DNA of 64,000 nt from Phycisphaerales bacterium. Lineage in GTDB: Bacteria; Planctomycetota; Phycisphaerae; Phycisphaerales; SM1A02. Shown here piece by piece: positions 11,651 through 22,350 of this stretch. Positions within the stretch are counted from its first letter, which is position 1; each line of letters starts with the position of its first letter. The notes beneath the pieces were generated by a model, which made no database searches, had not been told where the DNA came from, and saw only the letters and a list, made by a program, of their open reading frames with translations. The stretch lies in assembly GCA_014238965.1 (NCBI GenBank), contig JABAAC010000058.1, positions 1 through 64,000 on the forward strand, read 5' to 3'. Position numbers and translations under genes: made by a program.

Positions 11651-11753
11651 TTGTTCCAAAACGAGAGAGGTGCACAGCACACGCTGTGCTACGGCGGTGG
11701 CGAAGAGAGGAACCTATGACGCCTGGTTGCAAAACTGGGCGTCCATGGTTTTT

Positions 11754-11834
11754 GCCCCCCGTTCTTGCCCCCCGTTCTTGCCCCCCGTTGTTGCCCCCCG
11801 TTCTTGCCCCCCGTTCTTGCCCCGCATCTTCGCC
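11754..11834. repeat. 13-bp tandem repeat GCCCCCCGTTCTT (5 copies plus degenerate continuation); minus strand is a regular G6-tract array
   Basis: Units at 11754, 11767, 11780 (GTTGTT variant), 11793, 11806, then GCCCCGCATCTT; just 3' of the polA stop codon (11853-11855). Confidence 0.95.
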
Positions 11835-11852
11835 CCCCGCCGCTGTCAACGC

Positions 11853-15876: not shown

Positions 15877-16461
15877 TCAGCCTCCACGCCGGCCAGCATA
15901 ATCAAGCCGCCCCGGCGAGGTTTCAAACCGCCACCCGCGGGCACTCAGCAGCAGGACCCAGCCCACCAAAATCGCCAGCAACGATGTGGCAAGGGCATCC
16001 CCACAGAGCCGAAGGAGTACGTCCGAGGCGGGCTGAGGAATAGCGGCCTGCGTCCATGGCAGCCAAAATCGGAATGTCTGAATAGATGCCAACGCCAATG
16101 CCGCTGAGGCCGCCACCACCCCGGCCACAACCACGAGCGTCACCGCCCGCGAGCGAAACAGCATGCTTCGGCACAACAGCACGAACCATGCTGCTGCGGT
16201 CATGCCCAGTGCTGATGGACCCAGCACAACGATCGCTGTGCCACCACCACCACTGCCTGGGGCTGCATCGAGCAGCAGTCCAGCCCACCAACCAGCCCAG
16301 AGCGCCGAGGCGGGCGAGGCATGGAGTGCTACGAAGGCCACAAGTACCGCCACAAGCGACGGTGCGGCACCTCCGAGCCAGCCAATGGAAAAGAGGCCAC
16401 CAACACCAGCATCCAAGCCTGCAAAGACCAACAGCACTGGCGCAAAGACGATCCACCTCAT
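15877..16461 (-). CDS. mreD: MreD-like membrane protein
   Basis: Multi-TM 194 aa, ATGA overlap with mreC; called by position and topology. Confidence 0.55.
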   Translation of the reverse strand: MRWIVFAPVLLVFAGLDAGVGGLFSIGWLGGAAPSLVAVLVAFVALHASPASALWAGWWAGLLLDAAPGSGGGGTAIVVLGPSALGMTAAAWFVLLCRSMLFRSRAVTLVVVAGVVAASAALALASIQTFRFWLPWTQAAIPQPASDVLLRLCGDALATSLLAILVGWVLLLSARGWRFETSPGRLDYAGRRGG

Positions 16462-17327
16462 TCCGTGGCCCCCTCTTCCCCAGCGGAGACCACTGCTACT
16501 TGCACGACCGACTGTGGTGGGGCGGCGGGCACTGCGATGACCCGCTGTCGCAAAGGTGCATCGTCAATGGGCTCCAATGACCGCACCGTGGCCAAGACCA
16601 AACCTTGCACCCGACTTGGCCACCGCGGATCGGTCAACATCAATCGATCGCCCAATTGAATGTCGGCACGCCGATCCACATCGGCGAGGAATGCCCCTGT
16701 GCCATCTGGTTGAAGGAGCAGACGATCGAGGGGGCGATCTAGTGACTCAATAGTTCGAACAACTGCAACTTCCACAGGACCGGAGTCTGGGTGCGCCACG
16801 GGCCGCACGAGCAATCGGAATGGGCCAACACGCTCCAATCGACCCACCAACAATCGATCCTTTGCAATAACCACATCGCCTGTGCGCACCCGACCTTGAG
16901 TTGCATCTGGCGGCTGCAACTCGATGCGCGCTGTGGCATCTCGTACCGCTCGACCAGTTACGACGCGGACCAACGTAGTTGGTGGCACGGGTGCGCGTAA
17001 GGCCGTGTCGGGCAGCGATTCAAGCAATCGCACACGCTGCGCCAAACCGTCAGCGCGAATTCTTTCTTGGCGGAATAGGCGTGCCCACGTGTCTCGCTCT
17101 CGCTGGACAAGGTCGAGGTGCTCGCGAGCTTGCATGCCGCCCAGACCATCGCCCGAGGGGCGAAGCCAATCGTCAAGCAGCACGCCCAATCGAGCGAAAG
17201 GCATTTGGGGCACTCGAAGAAGATCAGCGAGATCGGCGGACAGCCCCGATTGCGAAGGCGGCAATACAACTGACACACTCGTCAGCAGCAGCGCGAACCC
17301 AAGAGCCATTCGGCGTTTGCTGAGCAT
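16458..17327 (-). CDS. mreC: Rod shape-determining protein MreC
   Basis: TM + coiled coil + VVTGRAVRDATARIELQPPDATQGRVRTGDVVIAKDRLLVGRLERVGPFRLLVRPVAHPDSGPVEV; directly downstream of mreB. Confidence 0.75.
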   Translation of the reverse strand: MLSKRRMALGFALLLTSVSVVLPPSQSGLSADLADLLRVPQMPFARLGVLLDDWLRPSGDGLGGMQAREHLDLVQRERDTWARLFRQERIRADGLAQRVRLLESLPDTALRAPVPPTTLVRVVTGRAVRDATARIELQPPDATQGRVRTGDVVIAKDRLLVGRLERVGPFRLLVRPVAHPDSGPVEVAVVRTIESLDRPLDRLLLQPDGTGAFLADVDRRADIQLGDRLMLTDPRWPSRVQGLVLATVRSLEPIDDAPLRQRVIAVPAAPPQSVVQVAVVSAGEEGATE

Positions 17328-17356: not shown

Positions 17357-18415
17357 TCACAGGTCGTCGACGTCCGACTCCATGGTCGCCTTCCACATCT
17401 CAAGATTCTCAAGATAGATGCTGGTTCCACGGGCCACGCAGGTCAATGGGTCCTCGGCAATCGTCACGTCCAACCCCGTATCGCGATTCAACACGATGTC
17501 TAGGCCCCGCAGTAGTGCCCCGCCACCGACGAGGCAAATACCGTTGTCCACAAGATCGGCAGCAAGTTCAGGAGCTGCTCGCTCCAGCGTTCGCTTGACC
17601 GCATCCACAATGGCGCGAATTGGTTCCTGCAAGGCTTCGCGAATCTCCTCGCTGGTCACCTCTGTCTTGCGTGGCAAGCCCGACAAATTGTCGCGGCCAC
17701 GCACTGCCATGGTGGTCTCCTCGCCCGTGGCTGCAGCAGAGCCAATCTCGATCTTGATCCGCTCGGATGTCTGCTCACCGATGGTGAGGTTGTACGTCTT
17801 CTTCATGTGCGTGATGATGGCTTCATCAAAGTCATCACCCGCGGTACGCACGGATTCGCACGTTGCAATATCTGCCAGCGACATGATGGCGACCTCGGTT
17901 GTACCACCGCCAATGTCAACAACCATCGATGCGGTGGGCTCGGCAATAGGCAACCCCGCGCCAATGCCTGCGGCCATTGGCTCTTCAACGAGGAAAACGC
18001 GTCGAGCGCCAGCGCGTTCTGCTGAATCAAGCACTGCACGCTTCTCAACTGCGGTGATCCCACTGGGCACCGCCACCACAACACGCGGGCTCACGATTCG
18101 AGCTTTACCCGTGGCTTTGCGAATGAAGTACGCAAGCATTGCTTCAGTGATTTCAAAGTCACTGATGACGCCGTCCTTCAACGGCCGAATGGCGCTGATA
18201 GATCCAGGAGTCTTACCGAGCATTTCCTTGGCTTCCCAACCCACGGCGTTGCCGTTGTTGAGCACCCGATTCGTGCCCTTGTGCACTGCAACGACAGACG
18301 GCTCATTGAGAATGATGCCTTCCCCCCTGACGGCAACAAGCGTGTTGCACGTACCAAGGTCTATTCCCATATCAACGCTGAACCAACTGAGTATGCGGTC
18401 GAGAACCAACTTCAT
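17357..18415 (-). CDS. mreB: Rod shape-determining protein MreB
   Basis: FSVDMGIDLGTCNTLVAVRGEGIILNEPSVVA; VVDIGGGTTEVAIMSL; SD GGAGGG upstream. Confidence 0.97.
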   Translation of the reverse strand: MKLVLDRILSWFSVDMGIDLGTCNTLVAVRGEGIILNEPSVVAVHKGTNRVLNNGNAVGWEAKEMLGKTPGSISAIRPLKDGVISDFEITEAMLAYFIRKATGKARIVSPRVVVAVPSGITAVEKRAVLDSAERAGARRVFLVEEPMAAGIGAGLPIAEPTASMVVDIGGGTTEVAIMSLADIATCESVRTAGDDFDEAIITHMKKTYNLTIGEQTSERIKIEIGSAAATGEETTMAVRGRDNLSGLPRKTEVTSEEIREALQEPIRAIVDAVKRTLERAAPELAADLVDNGICLVGGGALLRGLDIVLNRDTGLDVTIAEDPLTCVARGTSIYLENLEMWKATMESDVDDL

Positions 18416-18510: not shown

Positions 18511-18690
18511 CTACTGCAGAATCTCAAACGGCGAACCGGCCTGGCGACCATCCTGGGCGCTACCGTGTTCCATGTTGTGGAGCACCAAGTAGACGCAGCC
18601 GAGAATCATTATGAGCAGCGCGATGCCTGAGATAGCGCTGTAAACGTCTAGCGGGGCCCCCGCAGTTCCCTTTTTGGCGAATCGACTCAT
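18511..18690 (-). CDS. Small single-TM protein of unknown function
   Basis: MSRFAKKGTAGAPLDVYSAISGIALLIMILGCVYLVLHNMEHG...; between mreB and a MreC-like gene in the same orientation. Confidence 0.55.
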   Translation of the reverse strand: MSRFAKKGTAGAPLDVYSAISGIALLIMILGCVYLVLHNMEHGSAQDGRQAGSPFEILQ

Positions 18691-18697
18691 GGCTGGT

Positions 18698-19642
18698 TCA
18701 ACTTTCGCCTTCAAGGGCGTAGGCTCGATGCCCAGCCTGTGCCAACCCACGAGCGGGGTCTTCATGCGTCAGCAGACCCGTAGATCGGTTCAGGTCGACC
18801 TGAATGATGCGTAGGCGACCGATGAAGGTGCCACCATCACCGATTGTGAGAATCCAGCCTTCTTGCACACCGTCACGAGAACCCGCGTCTATTTCCACCA
18901 AGGTGTTTTCGCCGCGGGAAACATCAAGCACGGTTGATGTGAGATTTCGATCAGGAGCAATACCTTCGTCAAGTGCACGGTCTGATCCATCGATCGATCC
19001 GAAGTTGGCTTCGAATTGGGCCAACTCTTCACTTGATCGTTGTTGAACCTGACGCAGGGACTCATTCTCTTCCTGCAAGACCTTGCGGACGTCTGCAGCA
19101 ACTTGCAGTTGCGCCTCGGCCTCTGCCAAACGCTCGTCAATTTCCACACGCTGCGACTCGGCCAATACGGTTCGGCTTCGCAGACCCTCAAGATCACTCA
19201 GCAGCAATTTGCTCAAGCCGCTGCTTGTAGACAAACTCTGGGCCATGGCCAATTGCATGGCCTCCTTGCTGGCAAGTTGGCTGCGTGACTCAAGCAGTTG
19301 CGCTTCCGTCTGCGTCATCGCCATAGCAAGCGATTCCATTTGGGAAATCTGTGCCTGCTCGCGCTGGCTGTAAATTGCAAGTTCCTCATTGAGGACTGCA
19401 ACTTGCCCCTGCGCTTGCTGTCGATGTTGCGAGAGATCGTTACGAGCCGTGCGCAGTTGCGTCTGATGGTCGAGGGCTTCAGCCCGCCAATGCTCTTGAT
19501 TGAGTGTCGAGACAACAACGAGCGGGACCATGAAGATGGCCAGCAGCGACACGAGAACCACGAAGATCTTGGTGAGAATGTGCACGTATGTATTCCGTGA
19601 TAAACCCCACCCAAGGGGTTGTGATGGTGGACTCTGGGCCAA
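18698..19642 (-). CDS. Membrane-anchored coiled-coil protein with MreC-like topology
   Basis: N-terminal TM (IFVVLVSLLAIFMVPLVVVSTL), long Gln-rich coiled coil, C-terminal NTLVEIDAGSRDGVQEGWILTIGDGGTFIGRLRIIQVDLNRSTGLL (MreC-type beta domain). Confidence 0.6.
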   Translation of the reverse strand: MAQSPPSQPLGWGLSRNTYVHILTKIFVVLVSLLAIFMVPLVVVSTLNQEHWRAEALDHQTQLRTARNDLSQHRQQAQGQVAVLNEELAIYSQREQAQISQMESLAMAMTQTEAQLLESRSQLASKEAMQLAMAQSLSTSSGLSKLLLSDLEGLRSRTVLAESQRVEIDERLAEAEAQLQVAADVRKVLQEENESLRQVQQRSSEELAQFEANFGSIDGSDRALDEGIAPDRNLTSTVLDVSRGENTLVEIDAGSRDGVQEGWILTIGDGGTFIGRLRIIQVDLNRSTGLLTHEDPARGLAQAGHRAYALEGES

Positions 19643-19663
19643 ATGGCTGTGGAAGCCTGTTCG

Positions 19664-20683
19664 CTAAAGAGGCTTTGTAGGTTCCCAGAGGCGTTTCGTC
19701 AATGGCGCAGCCCCCGATTGCTTCCGCCTGTGGAGAACCGAACCCGCCGCACGGACGCGTACGTGGGGATTGGGGTCTGCACAAAGTTCAAGTAGTGCCG
19801 CGTTCTGACCAGCGGCTTCACCAAAAGCGAGTGCCGAGGCAGCCTGTGCTCGAATGGCCGGTTCGGCATCAGTCACGAATTCCAGCGCGATTCGTGGCTG
19901 AGCTGCTTCGGGGGTCAAACGGCCCAATGCCTCAACTGCAATCAACCGCAATTCAGGCCCACAGGGCCGAGGTCCGGAGTTGAACGCGATCTGCTCTAGG
20001 GCATGCCCGAGGCCCGTATCTCCTAATTGGCCAGCTAGTTGCGCTGCAAGGGCGATAATCTCACCATCGTCGGCAGATCCAAAAAATGCGGCGCGTATTT
20101 CCTCTAGATGGCTCATGCTGCCAAGGCGCACCAAAGCCTCCGCGGTGGCCAACTCAACCAATCGAACGCGTCGAGCGTCTAGGCCAGGAATGGGTCGGCC
20201 AAGCGAGGCTGTCAGCAACCCCACGGCCGACTCGTTGCCAAGACGCCCCAAGACCATGGCGGCGTTAGATCGAGAGGTCGGATCGTCCCCAAACATCATT
20301 TCGGCCAACAATTGCAACTTCACGGATTCTTGACAAGTGGCCAACGCATACAACGCTGCAGCTCGAACCGACATCGACGAATCGTTTTGCAGCGGGCGAA
20401 CAAGGTCGACGAGATCGCAATGCTTGCCATCACCGAGGCTGATCGCTGCAACGAACCGAACGCCTTCGTTGACATCCACCAATCCGAACTTTAGCGCATT
20501 GGCTTGCTGAGACGGTGCGGGTGCGAGCGCCTCGATGGCGTTTGCACGCAGCAGTGGATCGGGTGAACGCCCCGCCTGAAGCAGGATCTCGATGGGATCA
20601 GGCGGTGCCGGCGGCGGCGTTGCGGGCATAGGCGAGCACGCAACGAGCACCAGTAGCATCAGGCAGGCGATTGTGTGACGCAT
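19664..20683 (-). CDS. HEAT-repeat lipoprotein
   Basis: MRHTIACLMLLVLVACSP lipobox; repeated LRANAIEALAP / VRAAALYALAT / RSNAAMVLGRLG HEAT-like units. Confidence 0.7.
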   Translation of the reverse strand: MRHTIACLMLLVLVACSPMPATPPPAPPDPIEILLQAGRSPDPLLRANAIEALAPAPSQQANALKFGLVDVNEGVRFVAAISLGDGKHCDLVDLVRPLQNDSSMSVRAAALYALATCQESVKLQLLAEMMFGDDPTSRSNAAMVLGRLGNESAVGLLTASLGRPIPGLDARRVRLVELATAEALVRLGSMSHLEEIRAAFFGSADDGEIIALAAQLAGQLGDTGLGHALEQIAFNSGPRPCGPELRLIAVEALGRLTPEAAQPRIALEFVTDAEPAIRAQAASALAFGEAAGQNAALLELCADPNPHVRVRAAGSVLHRRKQSGAAPLTKRLWEPTKPL

Positions 20684-22350
20684 GACGCTCCATTCATCGG
20701 CCCGAGAGGGCCACCAACGACACGAACGATGAACCCAAGGAGAACCAACACACATAAAAGCCTTGGGAACCAATTGCCCCAACGAGCATATGTCGTGTGC
20801 TGTGGCGTTGCCCCAGGCGCTCTAATCACGCCAGCGAGTGAACCGGCCGTTTGAGCGGCAAGCCGGTGGCGAATCCTCCCCCTCGGTGAAATCACAGACG
20901 TAAACCCAGTGTTTGCAACGCGAATCATGGGCCGCCGCAATTCGATTGCCCGATAGATCGCTGCAACCTCGTGTGCACGACGACCAGCATCGTCTGTGCC
21001 AAACCAGCCGTCATTGCTGACGTTGATGATGACATCAGCAACCGTCTGGCCATCTTGCACCGCCAACTCACGCACGACACTAGGCACGGCATCTTCGAAA
21101 CACACTGGCACTGCCATGGTCCACGTGCGATCACGAACCTCAATGCTAAGCCGCACTGGCGCCTCCCCGGCGTCGAGATCAAATTGCATGCCGCTTGCAC
21201 CCACAGCCATGAGCTGATGCTCCAGCCACGGCCAACTGCGGATCCATGGCATCGTCTCGCCAAATGGTGTCAGAAAGATCTTGTCGTAACGCTGCAAGGC
21301 ACCCTTAGGATCCACCAAGACGGCGCTGTTGTACCGCTGGGCACTTTGCAAGTAACCCTCGTCATTGAAAGACATGCCCACCCACGACGGTGAGCCCACC
21401 AGCCAGGGCATGCCTGTCTTGACTGCAGCACGCTGAACCACCTGTGGCCAACGCGCCAGATGTGCCGCCCTAGGACCCAGGGATGCAATGAAGGAGATGG
21501 TGTCCGGGTCAAAGCCAACCCCTGGCACCATGGTCTCAGGCCACACAACAAGATCGATGGGCCCTGCCTTGTCTAGCGCAGCGAATGTTTGATCAATGAA
21601 CCCGTTGACATCAGCTTCTTGTCGGTCCTGAGCCCAACCGATTTTGTTGTCTTGGGGCAAATTGGTCTGCACCGCAAGCACCCGCAATGTTGCGTCATCT
21701 GTCGAAGGTGATGTTGTATTGGAGCTCGCCAGGTTGATCCAAAGCCAAAGAACGAGGAAGCACACAAACATCACAAGACTTCGATTCCAAGGCCTAGCCG
21801 TCACGAGCGACACAGACCCAAAGACAACGAGAAAACTCGCCAACCAAACGCCGCCGAATGACGCGACCTGTCCTAACGAGGTCCCCACAACACCGTGGGC
21901 TACGAAGTAGAACGGCCACGCATCCAAGACCACTTCGCCGCGGAGATATTCGAGCGTCGTAAACAACACAGCCGCGGTAAAGGCAAGTGGTACGCGAGCG
22001 GTCCAGCGGCCCAATGCCAATGCACGCAGTAAGACGGCAAACAGTGGCACCCAGAGGGTCGAATACAGCGCGAGCCCCGGCCAACCTGCCACCGAAACAT
22101 CTTGCACCCATCTCAGGGCAATCAACCAAGGCACCAGAAAGACCACACCGCACAGCAATGCCATGCGCCATGTTGAGGGCGCCCACAGCGCAGCTCGAAC
22201 AAGCAACCCAGGCCAGAGCAAACTCGCCGCCACCACCACAGCCAGCGGCAAGGGCGCCGCCGTGACGGGCATTGACAGCCACCAGCACACTGCAGATGCA
22301 ATCAGCAGCCCAACCGTAGTGGTCAGCGGCGGATCGCACGTGCGTTGCAC
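20659..22350 (-). CDS. lnt: Apolipoprotein N-acyltransferase
   Basis: N-terminal multi-TM; LVVWPETMVPG, FLTPFGETMPW, VPVCFEDAVP, NVSNDGWFG nitrilase-domain motifs; start refined to GTG at 22350. Confidence 0.9.
   Translation of the reverse strand: MQRTCDPPLTTTVGLLIASAVCWWLSMPVTAAPLPLAVVVAASLLWPGLLVRAALWAPSTWRMALLCGVVFLVPWLIALRWVQDVSVAGWPGLALYSTLWVPLFAVLLRALALGRWTARVPLAFTAAVLFTTLEYLRGEVVLDAWPFYFVAHGVVGTSLGQVASFGGVWLASFLVVFGSVSLVTARPWNRSLVMFVCFLVLWLWINLASSNTTSPSTDDATLRVLAVQTNLPQDNKIGWAQDRQEADVNGFIDQTFAALDKAGPIDLVVWPETMVPGVGFDPDTISFIASLGPRAAHLARWPQVVQRAAVKTGMPWLVGSPSWVGMSFNDEGYLQSAQRYNSAVLVDPKGALQRYDKIFLTPFGETMPWIRSWPWLEHQLMAVGASGMQFDLDAGEAPVRLSIEVRDRTWTMAVPVCFEDAVPSVVRELAVQDGQTVADVIINVSNDGWFGTDDAGRRAHEVAAIYRAIELRRPMIRVANTGFTSVISPRGRIRHRLAAQTAGSLAGVIRAPGATPQHTTYARWGNWFPRLLCVLVLLGFIVRVVGGPLGPMNGASCVTQSPA

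Follow-up and report, generated by a model that had tools for sequence, protein, structure and literature searches.

A coiled-coil membrane protein encoded beside mreB and its small partner: a candidate envelope module of planctomycetes

What does a membrane protein with a long coiled coil do directly upstream of mreB in a planctomycete, and does its function belong with that of mreBCD? The question is raised by a locus of a Phycisphaerales bacterium, for which the whole stretch of DNA analysed (64,000 nucleotides) is referred to as the window. An earlier note had interpreted three open reading frames at this locus as a small transmembrane (TM) protein, a second MreC-like protein and a HEAT-repeat lipoprotein, and together as a possible accessory elongasome module. 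All three were found where the note had placed them on the minus strand, with lnt upstream and mreB, mreC and mreD downstream. The full gene order on this strand is accD, lnt, the HEAT lipoprotein gene, the gene in question (hereafter Q), the gene for a 59-aa TM protein, mreB, mreC, mreD, an alternative glmU and polA, with only short gaps or overlaps.

The apolipoprotein N-acyltransferase gene lnt (20659-22350, minus strand; TIGR00546, 232 bits) overlaps the start of the HEAT lipoprotein gene by 25 bp. The product of the latter (19664-20683, minus strand, 339 aa) was assigned from Pfam HEAT_2 (1e-21), from synteny and from a lipobox, LVAC, preceded by a signal sequence. On the other side, mreB (17357-18415, minus strand) matches PF06723 at 5e-139. 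The frame at 16458-17327 (minus strand) is a canonical mreC, as the earlier note had it, with 31.4 bits against a cut-off of 28 for the Pfam family MreC (PF04085), although it is divergent. The first-lobe motif G-S-x-x-G-V has been lost from this MreC, which reads PPDATQGRV at that place; most relatives keep the motif. For mreD (15877-16461, minus strand) the profile matches lie below cut-off (PF04093 8e-4, TIGR03426 2e-3), and its place in the cluster is conserved. A scan for promoters and terminators gave no more sites than were found in shuffled sequence. Just past the 3' end of polA, a 13-bp unit, GTTCTTGCCCCCC, occurs in 7 tandem copies (window 11748-11839).

Q itself (18698-19585, minus strand) is assigned as a bitopic membrane protein of 295 aa with a GTG start, based on the conserved start, an AF2 model and the spread of the family. 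The length of 314 aa given in the earlier note was revised: the TTG at 19642 is too early, and conservation places the start at the GTG at 19585 ('MHILTKIF...'). All 54 loci of the order have GTG or TTG as the codon immediately before 'HILTKIF'. Among these starts were 36 GTG, 18 TTG and 0 ATG (n = 54); in the rest of the phylum ATG is used at 30/63 loci. The conserved weak start may hold the level of Q low.

The sole hydrophobic membrane helix of Q, delimited from sequence and alignment, spans residues 7-27 (19505-19567, minus strand); K6 stands before it and there is no cytoplasmic domain. Lysine or arginine occupies position 6 in all 117 proteins compared (117/117). Residues 27-195 (19001-19506, minus strand) are assigned to a continuous coiled coil of ~25 nm from the AF2 model, periodicity, heptad phase and length. 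The model (mean pLDDT 90) consists of a single helix (residues 3-195) followed by six strands. The hydrophobic periodicity peaks at 3.5 residues with a constant phase over residues 28-181, and the heptad core positions are hydrophobic at frequencies of 0.57 and 0.50, compared with 0.06-0.16 at the other five positions. The constant phase and the hydrophobic core positions indicate an unbroken canonical coiled coil of ~24 heptads.

The length of this coiled coil is fixed although sequence identities drop to ~20%. K6 and E172 are 166 aa apart in 48/48 aligned proteins and in 64/64 proteins of the order in an ungapped landmark scan. Phylum-wide, a gapped alignment gave 166 in 106 of 117 proteins; seven have 159 and two have 173, differences of one heptad less or more, which account for most of the exceptions. 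Outside the order, the ungapped scan returned 166 in only 18/53 proteins, being too weak in distant classes; because E172 is weakly conserved beyond the order, the exact length there rests on the gapped alignment. The linker to the C-terminal barrel varies (K6-G235, SD 6), and the comparable landmark distance in MreC ranges from 104 to 122. From the monomer prediction we infer that Q probably spans the periplasm as a dimer with the corresponding topology. As an alternative to a membrane anchor, the hydrophobic stretch may be a signal peptide that is cleaved behind it.

The gene for the 59-aa one-TM protein (18511-18690, minus strand) starts 7 bp after Q, and an equivalent small TM frame lies 3' of Q in most Q loci. 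The protein has a basic N-terminus, a motif D-V-Y-S/T, a single TM helix and a short tail. A small TM frame with a D/N-V-Y-T-like motif was found within 350 nt after Q at 90/117 Q loci, compared with 12/351 random places; 90/117 is a lower bound, because some of the remaining loci carry a small TM frame with a different motif. Q and the 59-aa protein are thus a two-gene module. The HEAT lipoprotein gene adjoins Q only within the class among the sampled loci, and it is therefore not counted in the core module.

Gene order around Q is conserved far beyond this genome; the earlier note had named absence of such synteny as evidence against its lead. Q lies immediately 5' of mreB on the same strand at 46/54 loci of the order, and likewise at 18/20 loci sampled in the other families of this class and at 14/20 from outside it. 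Upstream of Q, lnt is often found, and in most of the phylum the Q gene stands between lnt and mreB. Distances between Q proteins and between MreB proteins are correlated (Mantel rho 0.70, p 0.001, 77 loci), as they would be under vertical co-inheritance. In family f43 (L140, L141, L142, L164, L174), Q is immediately preceded by a shorter Q-like frame, ~224-239 aa long in L140-L142, so that the arrangement amounts to a tandem duplication.

Q is near-universal in the phylum and absent from the anammox lineages. A scan with the single Q protein matched four contigs, all from Phycisphaerales/Phycisphaerae. Homologues were found in 55/61 relatives, and the Q family matched 147/148 genomes of the class and 189/195 of the phylum. 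This spread, together with the conserved gene order, indicates real genes and not chance reading frames. To guard against coiled-coil matches that reflect composition, the search was redone with the barrel alone; this profile matched 42/44 non-anammox genomes and 1/15 genomes of families f55 and f73, where the match was a different, 720-aa protein. Families f55, f73 and f77 were identified as anammox bacteria from hydrazine synthase, which is present in 5/6 genomes tested. At the anammox loci (L159-L163, L166, L167), neither Q nor the small TM gene was found between lnt and mreB, and the cluster there reads lnt-mreB-mreC-mreD followed by PBP2- and RodA-like frames (with rodA matches there).

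The opposite case was found in five genomes that are 98-99% complete (G289, G301, G325, G346, G349). All retain Q (E 5e-23 to 6e-28), and searches of them gave no MreB at E<=1e-60, no FtsW/RodA and no MraY above cut-off. In many Planctomycetales, peptidoglycan genes and the MreB complex have been lost together (PMC8567305). Where mreB is gone, Q still stands together with both lnt and the small TM gene (L151, L168, L169); in L152 it is found with the small TM gene. The retention of Q without MreB, SEDS proteins or MraY, and its absence beside mreBCD in anammox bacteria, show that its occurrence is not tied to the elongasome. Present in nearly all planctomycetes, including those without the shape and wall machinery, Q probably has a general role in the envelope and is not a spare shape protein.

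These data bear on the accessory elongasome module of the earlier note, of which the coding together with mreBCD stands and the functional tie is put in doubt. According to this explanation, Q would be a scaffold resembling MreC or RodZ that couples MreB to the wall synthases in a phylum without RodZ. Its place directly 5' of mreB in most loci and its MreC-like motif are consistent with such a role, as is the apparent lack of RodZ: the RodZ_C profile matched 0/195 planctomycete genomes, while the same search found RodZ_C in 5 control genomes, and in a review no RodZ is reported from Planctomycetes (PMC5147048). The HTH_25 profile gave weak matches in 19/195 planctomycete genomes. The strong linkage to mreB equally suits an elongasome role combined with a second function where MreB was lost. 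However, Q is retained in the five genomes in which MreB, SEDS proteins and a full MraY are missing, anammox bacteria with an intact mreBCD cluster and PBP2- and RodA-like genes lack it, and Q has no cytoplasmic part with which to touch MreB. In addition, Planctopirus limnophila can do without mreB, a deletion of which is viable (PMC6952346). Overall, we consider an elongasome scaffold possible but rather unlikely.

A second explanation links Q to lnt and not to mreB, and would have it serve the transport of lipoproteins or lipids to the outer membrane. It could account for the loci at which mreB is gone and lnt still adjoins Q (L151, L168, L169), and for the overlap of the HEAT lipoprotein gene with lnt in this genome. 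It also agrees with a second protein in the genome of the window (L182:715-2088, G000 contig 180) that adjoins a lipid A acyltransferase gene; this protein has 457 aa and the order TM, coiled coil and FlgT_C domain, so the architecture recurs at envelope-lipid loci. Similar FlgT_C matches were seen in G037, G046 and G081. Yet several lineages (f43: L140-L142) have no lnt in the vicinity of Q, lnt occurs without Q in anammox lineages, and Q carries no transport domain, which makes a transport function improbable.

The C-terminal part of Q, residues 211-295 (18701-18955, minus strand), was assigned by AF2 and hhalign as a six-strand beta barrel of the FlgT_C/MreC-lobe-1 type. Modelled alone, the barrel has a pLDDT of 96.4. 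It carries the motif N/D-x-G-S-x-D-G-V, in which G235 is invariant (117/117); D and V in 'GSRDGV' are conserved for the most part. By hhalign, the barrel aligns with the first lobe of planctomycete MreC over 50 columns (P=4e-7); the best of the controls for this comparison, comprising ten unrelated families, twenty column shuffles and one reversal, reached P=0.039. With planctomycete FlgT_C-type domains it aligns over 69 columns (P=6e-10). Scanning the barrels of 48 Q members with Pfam MreC gave 11 weak matches (best E 5.7e-5), none of them at the cut-off; the Q of the window scored 13.9 bits versus 28. Pfam FlgT_C (PF16538) matched 12/48 members (best E 0.0019), and one member (G187) exceeds its cut-off, only with pieces summed over the frame. 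Profile matches in the PDB were a LysM domain protein and MreC, both with E 0.022. With full-length Q, myosins and other coiled coils came out on top of the PDB profile search; these were discounted as compositional. A fold search with the full model placed MreC at ranks 1, 2 and 4 (best 7.8e-4), and the same search with the barrel alone was not discriminating, as scores similar to those of MreC were reached by ATPase N-terminal barrels, alanine racemase and the LPHT ring.

The resemblance to MreC that the earlier note had seen is therefore real in the motif and in the first-lobe similarity, but is confined to half of one lobe. The duplicated or divergent MreC-like scaffold that it suggested, taken as a second MreC arisen by duplication of the neighbouring mreC, is very improbable: the shared succession of TM helix, coiled coil and beta domain, the hhalign match and the fold-search ranks of the full model speak for it, but no Q member passes the MreC cut-off, the alignment is limited to half of one of the two MreC lobes, FlgT_C matches better and over more length, the barrel alone retrieves many generic barrels, and the second beta lobe that follows the coiled coil in MreC was not found in Q, where one predicted six-strand barrel is followed by the C-terminus. 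The barrel of Q is related both to FlgT_C and to lobe 1 of MreC, and Q does not belong to the MreC family. Neither Q nor the small TM protein is covered by a family in Pfam or NCBIfam, and our literature search found no paper describing either of them.

The reading that we prefer, with the balance of belief for and against it about even, is that Q and the small TM protein form a planctomycete envelope module, a periplasmic strut or scaffold that was ancestrally encoded with mreBCD and is independent of MreB. Two features, the lysine K6 ahead of the hydrophobic stretch and the periplasmic location of related barrels, suggest an N-in, C-out orientation, in which the N-terminus of Q would lie inside and Q would be retained in the inner membrane as an anchor. 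Two coiled coils could pair in parallel into a periplasmic rod of ~25 nm, which would hold the barrel near the peptidoglycan or the outer membrane, docking on an envelope partner; the HEAT lipoprotein may be this partner in Phycisphaerae. The small TM protein might stabilise or position Q in the membrane. The neighbours lnt and mreB suggest that Q is expressed along with envelope growth, and the module was probably co-expressed with MreBCD, where it might coordinate the envelope layers during growth. That it is kept where MreB and peptidoglycan enzymes are missing points to a task in the envelope itself. The second protein of this architecture (L182), with its lipid A acyltransferase neighbour, likewise has an outer-membrane context. 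The core task would be spacing, tethering or scaffolding of the envelope, for which MreB and peptidoglycan synthesis would not be needed.

More speculatively, and with considerable doubt on our side, Q could be a molecular ruler, in which a parallel rod of fixed length and its small TM partner set or hold the distance between the inner membrane and the outer layer. Such a ruler would have arisen early in the phylum, be missing only in anammox bacteria, and have taken over structural work where peptidoglycan and MreB were lost. Planctomycete envelopes are unusual, with deep membrane invaginations, and some lineages have no peptidoglycan or MreB. Near-universal, with a rod of almost invariant length and a gene that remains beside the shape operon and persists where that operon is lost, Q is a concrete candidate for holding such envelopes together. 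The partner gene has been identified, and the length of the rod can be altered heptad by heptad in genetically tractable laboratory strains such as Planctopirus limnophila.

Among known systems, MreC (PF04085) shares with Q the inner-membrane helix, the periplasmic coiled coil, a beta barrel with I/N-x-G-S-x-x-G-V and the operon. Unlike MreC with its two barrels, Q has one, and its coiled coil is several times longer and of fixed length; it also scores below the MreC Pfam cut-off, is closer to FlgT_C and coexists with a true MreC. The C-terminal domain of FlgT (PF16538; FlgT, TsaP) aligns with the barrel of Q over most of its length. In contrast to FlgT and TsaP, Q is anchored by the TM helix and coiled coil and has no LysM domain, and no flagellar or pilus gene context was found at Q loci, where the neighbours are lnt and mreBCD. 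RodZ is bitopic, has a periplasmic coiled coil and a beta part, and is found near MreB; these traits are shared by Q, which differs in having no cytoplasmic HTH and only ~6 residues before the TM helix. Proteins of the TolA/TonB type combine a membrane anchor, a long helical periplasmic part and a small C-terminal domain, and Q resembles them in architecture; their C-terminal fold is different, and no TolQR neighbours were seen at Q. UPF0242 (PF06785) matches 7/48 Q members (best E 1.7e-7) through the TM and coiled-coil part, possibly by composition. The bitopic anchor, the coiled coil and the FlgT_C/MreC-like barrel are of known kinds; what is new is the way they are combined, together with the fixed length of Q and its pairing with a small TM protein across the phylum.
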